Shown: positions 17,905 through 22,960 of the stretch, piece after piece
Layout of the letters: each line of letters starts with the position of its first letter
Numbering within the stretch: position 1 is the first letter of the stretch
DNA from: Phycisphaeraceae bacterium
GTDB lineage: Bacteria > Planctomycetota > Phycisphaerae > Phycisphaerales > SM1A02
Assembly (NCBI GenBank): GCA_015709595.1
Contig: CP054178.1
Location: forward strand, 1,054,001-1,118,000
Direction of reading: 5' to 3'
DNA: 64,000 nucleotides
Made by a program: the position numbers and the translations under genes
Notes under the pieces: model-generated
What the model saw: the letters and a program-made list of their open reading frames with translations, nothing else
What the model was told of the DNA's origin: nothing
The model's database searches: none

Positions 17905-19314
17905 ATGAGCGACGCTCCACCCCGGACGACGCGGCGCACGGGGACTGCCGCCGCCCCTCCGGTTGAGATCACCACATTCCCCAACGCCGTGCGGTATCTG
18001 TACGACCGCGCGGACATCGAGCGCCAGCGGGCGGTGGCGATCGACCGCAGCGCGTTCAAGCTGGAACGGATGCAGGAACTGCTGGCGCTGCTGGGCAACC
18101 CGCATCTGGAGATCCGCACGGTGCATGTGGCGGGTACGGTGGGCAAGGGTTCGACCTGCGCCATGATCGCCCACATGCTGCGCGGCTGCAAGTACGCGGT
18201 GGGCGAATACACCAGCCCGCACCTGGTGGACATTCGCGAGCGCATCCAGATCAACGGGCAGATGATCGGGAGGAACGACTTCACGGAGGGCGTTGGCGAG
18301 GTGGCGGCGGCGGCGGCGAAACTCAAGTTTCAGCCCACGTTCTTCGAGCTCGTCACCGCGCTGGCCTTCAAGCACTTCGCCGAGCAGGCGGTGGACATCG
18401 CGGTCATCGAGGTGGGGCTGGGCGGGCGGCTGGACTGCACCAACGTCATCACCCCCGAGGTATCGGTCATCACCACCATCGACTACGACCACATGCACCT
18501 GCTGGGGCGAACGCTGCCCGAGATCGCGCGGGAGAAGGCGGGCATCTTCAAGCCCGGCGTACCGGCGATCTCGGTGGAGCAGACGCCCGAGGTGGACGCG
18601 GCGCTGCGCGAGGCGGCGGAGAAGGTCGGCGCGCCGCTGTCGGTCGTGAACAAGGAGATCGAGTTCTCCTACCGCTTCGGAGCCGCCCAGGCGCGCGGAC
18701 CGCAGAGCCGGGTGTGCCTGTTCACGCCCACCAGCCGCTTCGAGCATGTGGGCGTGCCGCTGCCCGGCGAGCATCAGGCCCTCAACTGCGGCGTGGCCCT
18801 GGCCGCGGTGGACGTGCTCAAGGGCGCGGGGTACGACCTGCCCGACAACCTTCTGCTGGAGGGTCTGGCGACCACGAAGATTCCGGGACGGATGGAGCTG
18901 GTGTGGACCAAGCCGCGGATTCTGGTGGACGGCGCCCACAATCCCGCCGCCCTCACCACGCTGATGAAGTGCGTGGGCGTCCACGCGCCGTACGACTCGA
19001 TGGTCTGCATCTTCGGCTGCTGCGACGACAAGGACGTGGACGCCATGCTCGACCGCGTGGCCCTGGGCGGCGACAAGGTGATCTTCACGCGGGCCAAGGG
19101 CATCGCCCGGGCCGCCGACCCGGAGGATCTGCAGCACCGCTTCCAGGAGCGGTCAGGCAAGATGAGCCAGGTGGCGAAGGACGTGGGCGAGGCGCTCAAC
19201 CTCGCCAGCCGCGCGGTGGGACGCGATGACCTCATCTGCGTGACGGGCTCGTTCTACCTGGTCGGCGAAACCAAGAAGTACCTGGCGGAGCTGGAGAAGA
19301 AGCGGCCCGCGTGA
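17905..19314 (+). CDS. folC: Bifunctional folylpolyglutamate synthase/dihydrofolate synthase
   Basis: Adds glutamate to dihydropteroate or folates, using ATP. 469 residues of the Mur-ligase superfamily: P-loop VAGTVGKGSTCAM (about residues 76-88), YTSPHLVDIRERIQING, EVGLGGRLDCTN, and DGAHNPAALTTLM in the C-terminal domain. The N-terminal extension of about 35 residues before YLYDRADIER is not conserved. Start ATG 17905 has a TACCAT element 8 nt upstream. It is followed by a separate promoter and leader for leuS, so it is likely monocistronic. Confidence 0.93.
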   Translation: MSDAPPRTTRRTGTAAAPPVEITTFPNAVRYLYDRADIERQRAVAIDRSAFKLERMQELLALLGNPHLEIRTVHVAGTVGKGSTCAMIAHMLRGCKYAVGEYTSPHLVDIRERIQINGQMIGRNDFTEGVGEVAAAAAKLKFQPTFFELVTALAFKHFAEQAVDIAVIEVGLGGRLDCTNVITPEVSVITTIDYDHMHLLGRTLPEIAREKAGIFKPGVPAISVEQTPEVDAALREAAEKVGAPLSVVNKEIEFSYRFGAAQARGPQSRVCLFTPTSRFEHVGVPLPGEHQALNCGVALAAVDVLKGAGYDLPDNLLLEGLATTKIPGRMELVWTKPRILVDGAHNPAALTTLMKCVGVHAPYDSMVCIFGCCDDKDVDAMLDRVALGGDKVIFTRAKGIARAADPEDLQHRFQERSGKMSQVAKDVGEALNLASRAVGRDDLICVTGSFYLVGETKKYLAELEKKRPA

Positions 19315-19336
19315 GAGATTCCGACCGTCGGCTGAT

Positions 19337-19364
19337 TTGATTCCGACCGTCCGGTCGATAGAGT
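19337..19364 (+). promoter_or_regulatory. Promoter of the leuS leader
   Basis: -35 TTGATT (19337-19342), 16-bp spacer, -10 TAGAGT (19359-19364). The motif GATTCCGACCGTC occurs twice here (from about 19317 and 19338), the second copy overlapping the -35. Transcription would start at about the ATG at 19372. Confidence 0.6.
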
Positions 19365-19371
19365 GCTGGGC

Positions 19372-19431
19372 ATGAATGGAAAGCACGGTGCATTCCGCTC
19401 GCCACTTACCGGGTCGGCAACCCCGGTGTAG
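19372..19431 (+). CDS. Candidate 19-residue leader peptide upstream of leuS
   Basis: ATG to TAG, 19 codons, reading MNGKHGAFRSPLTGSATPV. The ATG lies 7 nt after the -10 TAGAGT, so it would be translated from a leaderless transcript. The RNA can form at least two hairpins across the ORF (GGAA...TTCC around 19378-19396, ACCGGG...CCCGGT at 19408-19427). It contains only one leucine codon, so classical leucine-codon attenuation is not obvious. It may be a chance ORF inside a structured leader or small RNA. Confidence 0.4.
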   Translation: MNGKHGAFRSPLTGSATPV

Positions 19432-19458
19432 CCGCGCGCGGACATGGATGATCCCCCC

Positions 19459-19488
19459 AGGCCCCGCGACGACGGGGCCTGTTGTTTT
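19459..19488 (+). terminator. Intrinsic terminator within the leuS leader
   Basis: A perfect 8-bp stem AGGCCCCG/CGGGGCCT with a 6-nt loop is followed by GTTGTTTT. It lies between the promoter and leuS, which is the arrangement of a transcription attenuator, or of a small RNA ending just before the gene. Confidence 0.7.
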
Positions 19489-19504
19489 CGAGGGAGGATT
19501 TCGG

Positions 19505-19543
19505 ATGACGACGAGCGCCGGTGCGTCCTGCCTTCTCGTCTGA
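19505..19543 (+). CDS. Candidate 12-residue ORF between the attenuator and leuS
   Basis: ATG to TGA, reading MTTSAGASCLLV, with GGGAGG 7 nt upstream, an excellent ribosome-binding site. Two adjacent leucine codons (CTT CTC) precede the final valine. The stop lies 18 nt before the leuS ATG, which itself has a more distant AGGAG (12 nt). Translational coupling to leuS is plausible, with leucine-sensitive pausing as a further possibility. Both are inference. Confidence 0.4.
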   Translation: MTTSAGASCLLV

Positions 19544-19561
19544 TCAGGAGACCACGACATC

Positions 19562-22500
19562 ATGGCTCAGCCCGCCCCCCCGACACACGCATCCGCTCCC
19601 GCGACAGCCGCGTCATCCACGGACGCGGAGTTCCCCTTCCGCTACGGGGCGGCGCTGGCCAACGTCATTGAACGACGCTGGCAGGAGTGCTGGGCGGCAT
19701 CGCAGACGTTCCGCACGCCCAACCCCGGCGAGCCCGACTTCGACCCCCGGAAGCCGAAATTCTACGTGCTGGACATGTTCCCCTACCCTTCGGGTGCGGG
19801 GCTGCACGTGGGGCATCCGATCGGGTACATCGCCACCGACGTGGTGGCCCGCTTCAAGCGCATGCAGGGCTTCAACGTGCTGCACCCGATGGGGTGGGAC
19901 GCCTTCGGCCTGCCTGCGGAGCAGTACGCGATTCAGACGGGCGTTCACCCCGCCGTCACCACGCGCAAGGCCATCGACACCTTCCGCGCGCAGCTGCAGC
20001 GGCTGGGTTTCTCGTACGACTGGACGCGCGAGCTGGCGACCATCGATCCGGACTACTACCGCTGGACGCAGTGGATCTTCCTGCGGCTGTACGACGCCTG
20101 GTATGACCACGCCGCCAACCGCGCCCGTCCCATCCGCGAACTGATCGACGAACTGGATCGCGGCGTGCGCTTACCCGCCATCAACCCTCACGCGTCGGAA
20201 GTGCCCGCTGCGGAAAAAGCCCGGCGCTTCGGTCCGTGGAAGACGCTCTCGCCTTCGGATCAGCGCGCCGTCATCGACTCGCACCGGCTGGCCTACCTGG
20301 CCGAGCAGATGGTCAACTGGTGCCCCAAGCTGGGCACCGTGCTGGCCAATGAGGAGGTCATCGACGGGCGCAGCGAGCGCGGCGGGCACCCCGTCTTCCG
20401 CCTGCCGCTCAAGCAGTGGATGTTCCGCATCACCGCCTACGCCGAGCGGCTGCTGACCGATCTGGAGCCGCTGAAGTGGCCCGAATCGACCCGCACGATG
20501 CAGCGCGAGTGGATCGGGCGAAGCGAGGGGGCGGAGGTCGAGTTTCCGCTGGCCAAGCCCTGCTCGGGAGTGAAGTCGCTGCGCGTTTTCACCACGCGGC
20601 CCGACACCATCTTCGGAGCCACGTACATGGTCGTGGCGCCGGAGCATCCGCTGGTGGCGGCCCTGCTGGCTGAGCGGCCGGAACGCGACGCGGAGCGTTG
20701 CGCCATCCCCGACCGCGCCACCATCGACGCGCTGCGCGCCTACGTCGAGCAGGCCCGCAACCGCGCGGACATGGATCGTCTGGCCGACACGCGCGAAAAG
20801 ACCGGCGTGTTCACGGGGGTGCATGCCGTCAACCCCGCCACAGGCCAGTGCATTCCCGTGTGGACTTCGGATTACGTGCTGATGGGCTACGGACACGGGG
20901 CCATCATGGCCGTGCCGGCGCACGATGACCGCGACTTTGAGTTCGCGCGTACCTTCGGGCTGCCCATCCGCGACGTGGTGCATAACCGCCTGCTGGGCGC
21001 GATCGCCGCCGGCTGTCGCCCGCACCTGGAAGGCCGCGACACGCCCGGCGACTGGCCCAACCTGATGGTCGATTTCGTGGGCATCTGCCTGAGCGAGGGG
21101 CGCACGGACTACGAGAACATCTGGTCCGAGGCCCGGTCGCGGGCGGAGCAGGCGATCGCCTCGCCCCAGGTGAAGCCGTCAGGCGAAGGGGATATCGACG
21201 CCATCCTGCGCACGCCGCTCAAGCAGGCCGGAGAAGGCGCCAACCCCGACCCGGCGCAGGCGCGGCTGATCGCCATGGTGTGGTACGAGACGCTGATGGA
21301 CGCGGCGCACGGCGACTTCGACGCCCTGGCCCGCGCCAGCGTCGAAGGACGGCTGATTGACCTGCTGGGACACCCCGTCACCGAGGACGGCGTCGCCGTC
21401 AACTCCGCCAACGATGAGGTTTCGCTCAACGGGCTGCCGACCTCGCACGCGAAGCGGCGCATCGTCGAGTGGCTGGAGCGGACCGGTCGCGGCTCGCGCA
21501 AGGTCAACTTCAAGCTGCGCGACTGGCTCTTCTCGCGCCAGCGTTACTGGGGCGAACCCTTCCCCATCGTGTTCGATGCGCAGGGAAACCACTATCCCGT
21601 CTCGGACGCCGCGCTGCCCGTGCGGCTGCCGGACATGGCTGACTACGAGCCGATCGAGTCGGATCGCCCCACCCCGCCTCTGGGCAAGGCGACAAACTGG
21701 GTGAAGACCACCGCGGGCGAGGCGGGCGTGGACCCGGCCCTGCTGCCTCCCGACACGCCGGTGACGCGCGAAACCAACACCATGCCCGGCTGGGCCGGGT
21801 CGTGCTGGTACTACCTGCGCTTCTGCGACCCCCGGAATGACACGCGGTTCGTCGGCCCGGAGGCCGAACGGTACTGGATGGTGTCGCGAAAGGGAGAGGC
21901 ATCGAGGGATCAGGGCATCGAGGGATCGAGGCGGGAAGGCGGCGAAGCGTGGGACGCTTCCACGCATCATGTCGGGGGAGTCGATCTGTACGTGGGCGGC
22001 GCGGAGCACGCCGTGCTCCACCTGCTCTACGCGCGGTTCTGGCACAAGGCGCTGTTTGACCTGGGATTCGTTTCCACCCCCGAGCCGATCGGGCGGCTCT
22101 TCCACCAGGGGCTGCTGGTATCGCACGCCTATCAGCGGGATGACAAGACGCTGGTCCCCATCGACGAGGTCGAAGAGCGCGGCGAAGGCGTGTTCATCGA
22201 ACGCGCCACCGGCAGACCGGTCACGCCCATCATCGCCAAGATGTCCAAGTCGCTGCGCAACGTGGTGGTGCCGGACGACGTGGTGGCCGAGTACGGGGCG
22301 GATACCTTCCGCCTGTACGAGATGTCCATGGGCCCGCTGGAGGCCAGCAAGCCATGGAACACGCGCGACATCATCGGCCCCTTCCGCTTTCTGCAGCGAG
22401 CATGGCGGCTGATGGTGGATGAGAAGACGGGCGCCATCGCCCTGCGCGGCGGCGACCCGGACCCGACGGTCGAGAAGCAGCTGCACCGCACCATCGCCAA

Positions 22501-22960
22501 GATCGGCCCCGACATCGACAAGCTGAGCATGAACACCGCCATCGCGGCGTTGATCGAGTTCGTCAACGTCGCCACCAGCGCGGCCGGACCGGGCGGCGGC
22601 TCCGGTGGCGGGGGCGGCGTCCTCACGCATCATCAGGCCGAACGGTTCGTCACGCTGCTGGCCCCCTTCGCCCCGCACATGGCGGAGGAGCTGTGGTCGA
22701 AACTGGGACACGCCAAGTCGATCGCGCACGCCCCCTGGCCCGCCTTCGACCCCGCCATGCTGGTGGATGACGAGGTGGAGATCGCGGTGCAGGTCATGGG
22801 CAAGGTGCGTGCCCGACTGATGGTTCCCACCGGGTCGGACGAAAAGGCCATCGAACGGATCGCGATGGCTGATCCGAAGGTGAAGGTGCTGCTCGAGGAC
22901 AAGACCATCCGCAAGGTGTTCGTGGTGCCTGGTCGGCTGATCAACTTCGTGGCGCAGTAG
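19562..22960 (+). CDS. leuS: Leucyl-tRNA synthetase, with a repeat-derived insertion
   Basis: Charges tRNA-Leu. 1132 residues, well above the ~860 of typical bacterial LeuRS. FPYPSGAGLHVGHPIGY carries the HIGH-type motif (82-85), and KMSKS is at 893-897. An editing domain lies between, with TTRPDTIFGATY and the conserved LMGYGHGAIMAVPAHDDRD. After YWMVSRKG the protein carries about 20 extra residues (around 776-796) encoded by a dispersed GGCATCGAGGGATC repeat, just before VDLYVGGAEHAVLHLLY. Another ~50 residues separate the early HIGH domain from MVNWCPKLGTVLANEEV. The gene follows a structured leader with a terminator, so expression is probably attenuated. ATG 19562 chosen; AGGAG is 12 nt upstream. 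Confidence 0.95.
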   Translation: MAQPAPPTHASAPATAASSTDAEFPFRYGAALANVIERRWQECWAASQTFRTPNPGEPDFDPRKPKFYVLDMFPYPSGAGLHVGHPIGYIATDVVARFKRMQGFNVLHPMGWDAFGLPAEQYAIQTGVHPAVTTRKAIDTFRAQLQRLGFSYDWTRELATIDPDYYRWTQWIFLRLYDAWYDHAANRARPIRELIDELDRGVRLPAINPHASEVPAAEKARRFGPWKTLSPSDQRAVIDSHRLAYLAEQMVNWCPKLGTVLANEEVIDGRSERGGHPVFRLPLKQWMFRITAYAERLLTDLEPLKWPESTRTMQREWIGRSEGAEVEFPLAKPCSGVKSLRVFTTRPDTIFGATYMVVAPEHPLVAALLAERPERDAERCAIPDRATIDALRAYVEQARNRADMDRLADTREKTGVFTGVHAVNPATGQCIPVWTSDYVLMGYGHGAIMAVPAHDDRDFEFARTFGLPIRDVVHNRLLGAIAAGCRPHLEGRDTPGDWPNLMVDFVGICLSEGRTDYENIWSEARSRAEQAIASPQVKPSGEGDIDAILRTPLKQAGEGANPDPAQARLIAMVWYETLMDAAHGDFDALARASVEGRLIDLLGHPVTEDGVAVNSANDEVSLNGLPTSHAKRRIVEWLERTGRGSRKVNFKLRDWLFSRQRYWGEPFPIVFDAQGNHYPVSDAALPVRLPDMADYEPIESDRPTPPLGKATNWVKTTAGEAGVDPALLPPDTPVTRETNTMPGWAGSCWYYLRFCDPRNDTRFVGPEAERYWMVSRKGEASRDQGIEGSRREGGEAWDASTHHVGGVDLYVGGAEHAVLHLLYARFWHKALFDLGFVSTPEPIGRLFHQGLLVSHAYQRDDKTLVPIDEVEERGEGVFIERATGRPVTPIIAKMSKSLRNVVVPDDVVAEYGADTFRLYEMSMGPLEASKPWNTRDIIGPFRFLQRAWRLMVDEKTGAIALRGGDPDPTVEKQLHRTIAKIGPDIDKLSMNTAIAALIEFVNVATSAAGPGGGSGGGGGVLTHHQAERFVTLLAPFAPHMAEELWSKLGHAKSIAHAPWPAFDPAMLVDDEVEIAVQVMGKVRARLMVPTGSDEKAIERIAMADPKVKVLLEDKTIRKVFVVPGRLINFVAQ
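21898..21931 (+). repeat. In-frame GGCATCGAGGGATC repeat inside leuS
   Basis: Two exact 14-bp copies (21898-21911 and 21914-21927) plus a partial GAGG. The 17-mer GGGATCAGGGCATCGAG (21906-21922) recurs exactly at 54832-54848, and GGCATC(A/G)AGG variants occur at 33673 and 52124-52156, all intergenic. Confidence 0.75.

Follow-up and report, generated by a model that had tools for sequence, protein, structure and literature searches.

The 247 nt that separate folC from leuS in the window, as we call the whole 64-kb stretch of Phycisphaeraceae DNA analysed here (part of a genome made of a single 3.84-Mb contig), very probably hold a ribosome-mediated transcription attenuator of leuS of the trp/leu type (19337-19488, + strand). 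We found in this region a short leader ORF with a leucine codon, an intrinsic terminator and segments that can pair in alternative ways; the leader was conserved in a part of the relatives, where leucine codons were enriched at a fixed place, and cognate leaders were found upstream of ileS and thrS in the same genome.

Arrangement of the folC-leuS region

The upstream neighbour of the leader is folC (17905-19314, + strand; TIGR01499 match) and the gene controlled in our proposal is leuS (19562-22960, + strand; TIGR00396, 932.5 bits). All the elements that the initial annotation had listed, namely a promoter, a 19-codon ORF, a hairpin, a 12-codon ORF and leuS, were present in the sequence. On the + strand, a -35-like TTGATT (19337-19342) is separated by a 16-nt spacer from a -10-like TAGAGT (19359-19364), which lies 7 nt upstream of the ATG (19372) of the 19-codon leader ORF MNGKHGAFRSPLTGSATPV (19372-19431, the TAG at 19429-19431). 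The terminator hairpin, CAGGCCCCG-cgacga-CGGGGCCTG (19458-19481), has nine pairs, eight of them G-C, and is followed by TTGTTTT and by the 12-codon ORF MTTSAGASCLLV (19505-19543). LeuS has 1132 aa, and it may carry a lineage-specific insertion, because residues ~474-605 were left uncovered in most of the matches to relatives.

When the parts present in the window were taken alone they were not beyond chance, and the comparison with relatives lifted the layout above it. A strict sigma-70 scan of the 6-kb region found no promoter, the two terminator-like sites of this region compared with 2.5 in shuffles, and the fold of the 125-nt leader had a z of -1.8, with 9 of 200 shuffles being equally good. 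The genome showed no excess of the GGCCYCG hairpin pattern (9 sites versus 13 for the reversed control); among these nine hairpins, a run of four T followed only the leuS and ileS copies, and the one at L302 (minus strand) had TTCTTT. A strict scan for leaders (four equal residues in eight codons, a -10 and a terminator) showed no chance look-alike on either strand of the 64-kb window, the leuS leader itself, with one Leu, failing the four-residue scan.

T-boxes often control synthetase genes, and for this reason a T-box, or another tRNA- or metabolite-binding riboswitch acting without translation, was considered. No Rfam family matched the window at its gathering score, T-boxes included; a permissive search of 19200-19700 gave only chance-level matches and no T-box, in agreement with the initial remark that none was visible, and the Rfam covariance model of the enterobacterial Leu leader matched neither the window nor this region. 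As such a riboswitch would also leave the conservation of the ORF unexplained, we regard it as barely credible.

Distribution of the leader among relatives

The regions upstream of leuS were compared at 164 loci, comprising 129 of the family of the window (f1; drawn from the 169 genomes of this family in which leuS was matched), 21 of other families of the order and 14 on named contigs, some of which duplicate other genomes in the set. Of these loci, 86 (30 + 56) were read, and the remaining 78, with a folC-leuS distance below 150 nt, were covered by a terminator scan and by the covariance model R1 only. folC was located upstream of leuS in 123 of the 164 loci. The same order of parts was found in 20 loci, initially chosen by eye and including the window: 19 of the 129 in f1, the leader being absent from most loci of this family, and one of the 21 in the other families (L241, family f3).

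R1 was built from these 20 leaders, so that finding them again is true by construction; when run on all 164 loci, it returned the 20 and no further match on the leuS strand (E 1e-5 cut-off). Among 400 genomes of the order, full-length matches at E <1e-6 were obtained in 27, consisting of the 19 training genomes, seven of family f2 and G157, the last eight being outside the training of the model. The gene downstream was leuS in all 27 carriers with a readable next gene, including seven of seven in f2; the contig of G157 ends after the leader. A search at the class level (397 genomes, E 1e-5) gave, beyond the genome of the window (G000) and G020, only the doubtful G253 and G068, suggesting that the leader is confined to parts of the order, with the reservation that a divergent leader could be missed. 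The match of G253 (E 1.4e-6) was full-length, with an unrelated gene downstream and no leader ORF, and those of G145 and G068 covered the 3' part only, so none of the three was counted; further matches in the window's own genome (L288-L293) showed on reading no leader plus terminator. The conserved layout was visible only from the leuS upstream regions; when 60 relatives were searched with the DNA sequence itself, only short matches were obtained outside the own genome (best E 0.002, 44 nt).

Two peculiarities were noted among the carriers. The leader ORF of L241 is split by an in-frame TAG ahead of the conserved RSPLLQL part, which may be a real change, a readthrough or an assembly error, and in L026 and L271 the terminator hairpin, GTCTCGCCGCGCGAGACCCCG or a similar sequence, occurs in tandem, in about three copies, 3' of the leader terminator.

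The position of the terminator 3' of folC, the fact that terminator-like sites are no rarer than chance in the region and the 78 of 164 loci with less than 150 nt between folC and leuS and no leader would all agree with an ordinary folC terminator followed by a separate leuS promoter, the ORF being a chance reading frame. We consider this arrangement improbable, because all carriers have a promoter and an ORF upstream of the terminator, and because it accounts neither for the frame-specific enrichment of Leu at a constant distance from the stop nor for the cognate leaders at ileS and thrS, both described below.

Leucine codons and predicted translation of the leader ORF

Leader peptides of the relatives include MCHKVIVISPLLLLLLSG, MMTNNGSADSPLLLGLPNR and MTAHLTQLLLRLDRR, as well as MLISKETISPLLLLQLSG and MRFEVPRSLLPGTRSHT from genomes found with the model. 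Near-identical leaders were collapsed to 14 or 22 groups, because shuffles do not model relatedness, and start codons were assigned by their proximity to the -10. Leucine accounted for 66 of the 376 leader codons of the 22 groups; in the 14 groups it accounted for 44 of 246 codons. The two remaining frames gave 13 and 19, and shuffling gave 23.6 ± 3.7, with none of 500 shuffles reaching 44. A Leu codon was located exactly eight codons upstream of the stop in 15 of the 22 groups (shuffle mean 2.2), and 21 of them had one in the interval from -7 to -9 (shuffle mean 6.2, maximum 13 in 1000). In L026 the only Leu position is -4, and L281 is without Leu at -7 to -9. Across the relatives, the short leader ORF carries cognate codons at a fixed distance from its stop, the window copy alone having one Leu.

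This single Leu codon is CTT (19405-19407, + strand) and stands at -8. The Leu codons at -7 and -8 of the leaders include CTT, CTC, CTG, CTA and TTA, suggesting that the residue, and not the nucleotide sequence, is conserved. CTT represented 32 of 60 Leu codons when all 20 leaders were counted and 29 of 66 when the 22 groups were, versus 8 of 188 over the initial 900 nt of leuS at the leader-bearing loci, window included (Fisher p 1.4e-16 for leaders versus leuS, which is not a true probability as the rows are related). In the leuS and folC genes of the window it represented 1 of 128, so that the one Leu codon of the leader there is a rare one, standing where Leu is conserved.

The initial annotation had discounted the first ORF as not leucine-rich and had pointed to the second one (19505-19543), with its adjacent CTT and CTC codons. 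With Leu-rich relatives and CTT at the conserved place, the first ORF is now the likely control ORF. At the position of the second one, only three of the other 19 carriers (L026, L032 and L040) have some short ORF, none of them similar; lacking a counterpart in these carriers, it was rejected as control ORF and probably does not belong to the device. The conservation in relatives on which the initial reading had been made to depend was found in the carriers for the stem and the first ORF, and not for the second.

In all 22 group representatives the best -10-like hexamer was located 6-8 nt upstream of the ATG (searched at 3-10 nt; the assignment in L031 is doubtful), and in 7 of them TTGATT or TTGATC was found as -35 at 16 nt from the -10, the -35 of the f2 representatives being weak (two to three of six matches). 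The 6-8 nt between the -10 and the ATG, the sole observation bearing on a leaderless start, leave no room for a Shine-Dalgarno site, suggesting that the leader ORF is probably translated in a leaderless manner.

Possible alternative pairings of the leader RNA

Four segments of the + strand can form the pairs 1:2, 2:3 and 3:4, which are mutually exclusive, as in trp-type attenuators. Segment 1, TCCGCTCGCC (19394-19403), was the partner of segment 2 in folds of the ORF plus segment 2, and would pair with it when the RNA is free of ribosomes. Segment 2, CCGCGCGCGGA (19432-19442), adjoins the stop codon and, according to pairing calculations, would pair through its core CGCGG (19437-19441); a GCGCG core was conserved in alignment A1. 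Segment 3 is the 5' arm of the terminator (19458-19468), whose CCGCG (19464-19468) can, according to folds and duplexes, alternatively pair with the CGCGG of segment 2 as an antiterminator. Segment 4, supported by the hairpin scan and by covariation, comprises the 3' arm of the terminator (19473-19481) and the T tract TTGTTTT (19482-19488). The Ser-Pro ahead of the control codon is likely kept as an RNA segment, since CTCGCC would correspond to segment 1.

Covariation across relatives, which had been proposed initially as a check, was found in the terminator stem, where both sides had changed in 4 of 10 pairs, and was thin for 2:3; RNAalifold on alignment A1 recovered the terminator stem only. 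The 2:3 core was nearly invariant in the automatic alignment, with two compensated pairs in all (A-U to G-C in the window and C-G to G-C in L192) and mismatches in L161 and L241. The z of the 2:3 duplex was negative in 18 of the 20 leaders (mean -1.3 versus shuffles). Only six leaders, of which two are nearly the same, had p <0.05, and in a comparison with swapped arms the own arm was better than their average in 14 of the 20. In folds of the RNA that would be exposed by a ribosome stalled at codon -8, with segment 4 not yet made, 2:3 formed in 17 of the 20 leaders on visual reading, the exceptions being L024, L029 and L215; as a set, these folds were no more stable than shuffles (z -1.9 to 1.8; 0.34 for the window). 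An intrinsic terminator was present upstream of the gene, and an exclusive antiterminator formed by the post-ORF segment and the 5' arm of the terminator was supported over the set, the signal being weak for the window alone (shuffle p 0.10).

The one Leu codon and the modest pairing statistics of the window copy could also mean that a Leu attenuator present in the relatives has decayed in the species of the window, where it would be weak or constitutive. This is a sub-case of the attenuator, with which its probability overlaps, and we think it unlikely: the codon that remains is CTT, the rare one, at the conserved -8, the change in 2:3 is compensated and the terminator is intact.

Leaders upstream of ileS and thrS

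In the genome of the window, R1 also matched at 1702689-1702827 (G000:C1; L287 and L303; E 0.001), ~0.35 kb upstream of the ileS start at 1703180. This leader contains TATCCT 8 nt upstream of the ATG, the Ile-rich ORF MSLRTADIAIIAIESPR, a GGGCGA and a terminator arm with TCGCCC, and its 2:3 duplex had a p of 0.097. Thirty genomes were surveyed for similar leaders; 27 had an ileS match (none in G031, G003 and G157) and 23 were examined, loci L321, L323, L325 and L327 being left out because the anchor motif was absent. An Ile leader was found upstream of ileS in 13 of the 23, the own genome included (12 of 22 others). The scanner overlooked the leaders of G140, G036 and G333, which were recognised by eye; that of G333 is weak, with two Ile. 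In G338, G353 and G342 the ORFs with terminators found upstream of ileS were not Ile-rich. Short CCCCGCTGAGGGGC-like pieces, which may be weak or decayed Ile leaders, were seen upstream of ileS at four f2 loci (L317, L320, L324 and L329).

Ile accounted for 44 of 199 codons in 11 groups of ileS leaders; the remaining frames had 2 and 4, and shuffles 16.2. The amino acids were swapped between the two genes, with 44 Leu and 6 Ile codons in the leuS leaders and 9 Leu and 44 Ile in the ileS leaders. The mean z of 2:3 in the latter was -1.4 (n=13), with positive values in four (L304, L305, L316 and L324).

A thrS leader, known from the own genome only (L334:79-135; G000:C1 from 458679 on), has the seven-Thr ORF MFSARPATTTTTTTASAR, TATGCT 9 nt upstream of the ATG and a terminator with TGTTTGTT; its 2:3 duplex reached -24.2 kcal/mol (p 0.004). 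When 22 loci of the own genome were submitted to the strict scan, the leaders of thrS and of ileS, the latter in two overlapping loci, were the only ones to pass, and no leader was seen in the stretches scanned at valS (L254), the metG-like L255 and L335-L338.

The conservation, the content and position of the codons, the alternative pairings and the sister leaders of ileS and thrS together give good support to the lineage-specific attenuator that the initial annotation had suggested. That annotation had also raised a small RNA of ~120 nt; a terminated leader RNA of ~117 nt is indeed predicted, and a small RNA is not needed to explain the data. One of ~117 nt ending at the terminator and acting in trans would have its own promoter and terminator, and a stable terminated RNA is expected from an attenuator too. 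We judge it quite improbable, as it leaves the placement of the Leu codons and the cognate sister leaders unexplained, and leuS followed in all the 27 carriers with a readable next gene.

Proposed mechanism

In the attenuator that we propose, RNA polymerase would start at or beside the A of the leader ATG, as the spacing from the -10 suggests, and a ribosome would begin to translate the 19 codons of the leader with no Shine-Dalgarno site. When charged leucyl-tRNA is plentiful, the ribosome would pass the CTT, reach the TAG and cover segment 2, so that the 3:4 hairpin would form and transcription would stop upstream of leuS. When leucyl-tRNA is short, it would halt at the CTT and cover segment 1, leaving segment 2 free to form 2:3; the terminator would not form and leuS would be transcribed. 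When no ribosome is present, 1:2 would form, with the terminator as the default. A broader proposal, for and against which we see equal weight, is that Phycisphaerales have a set of leaderless trp-type attenuators on synthetase genes (leuS, ileS and thrS at least), one tRNA-Leu isoacceptor being sensed via the single rare CUU in the species of the window.

Comparison with known systems

The classical enterobacterial trp, leu and phe attenuators have cognate control codons, the 1:2, 2:3 and 3:4 hairpins and a U-tract terminator. Cognate codons, alternative hairpins and the U-tract terminator are common to both systems; unlike in enterobacteria, the devices described here would act on tRNA synthetase genes, with a leader ORF that appears to be leaderless, and one rare codon may be sufficient. 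Work by Canestrari in 2020 reportedly deals, to go by its title, with leaderless polycysteine ORFs of mycobacteria. These would likewise be leaderless control ORFs rich in one amino acid, acting there on operons.

Attenuators of leuS have been predicted in Streptomyces avermitilis and S. coelicolor, and also at trpS2, according to PMC1262725. They likewise have a leader ORF with Leu codons, an antiterminator and a terminator upstream of leuS; they belong to another phylum, and the leader of the window has one Leu and not a run. The same source attributes T-boxes and not leader peptides to actinobacterial ileS, in contrast to the leader peptide at ileS in the genome of the window, and describes mycobacterial cys leaders without obvious terminators, in contrast to the intrinsic terminator at the leuS of the window. 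Eighty named loci, 14 of them included in the 164-locus count, were all searched with R1, and the 16 actinobacterial ones were scanned for leaders. An ORF with a Leu run plus a terminator was found upstream of leuS in seven of the 16 (L078, L079, L090, L111, L114, L125 and L127), and such leaders occur outside Streptomyces. That of Micromonospora chalcea (L078) is MAGFFLLLTEPC, with TACACT 6 nt upstream of the ATG, and R1 matched L079 (Micromonosporaceae) at full length (E 1.3e-4). As the layout is shared, the planctomycete leader resembles, in its arrangement and presumed way of working, a device already predicted for leuS in Streptomyces.

In Mycobacterium tuberculosis the ilvB1 attenuator uses the codons of a uORF to sense charged tRNA, and its terminator and antiterminator are exclusive (PMC13236596); the sensing logic is the same as proposed here, the differences being the biosynthetic operon and the phylum. 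In the portion of PMC4833913 (2016) at hand, Planctomycetes are among the groups with a peak in the leader-gene distance, and no planctomycete attenuator is named. Among the matches listed from the open literature, a scope that leaves subscription papers mostly outside, no title or abstract described such attenuators in Planctomycetota; the survey of synthetase attenuators by Lopatovskaya (2010) could contain related cases. This kind of attenuator is thus already known, and none was found described in Planctomycetota among those matches.

Significance

If our proposal is true, leader-peptide attenuation of synthetase genes is also present in Planctomycetota, where one genome has a set of cognate switches, and small ORFs and RNA elements that have no matching Rfam family here would be gained for annotation. 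A spatial segregation of transcription and translation has been suggested for Gemmata obscuriglobus (Gottshall 2014, as cited in PMC5287468 and PMC5394234). Because attenuation works only with a ribosome close behind the RNA polymerase, the leader offers a direct test of transcription-translation coupling in this phylum, and the set of leaderless attenuators, if true, would require tight coupling in a phylum where spatial separation has been proposed for Gemmata.
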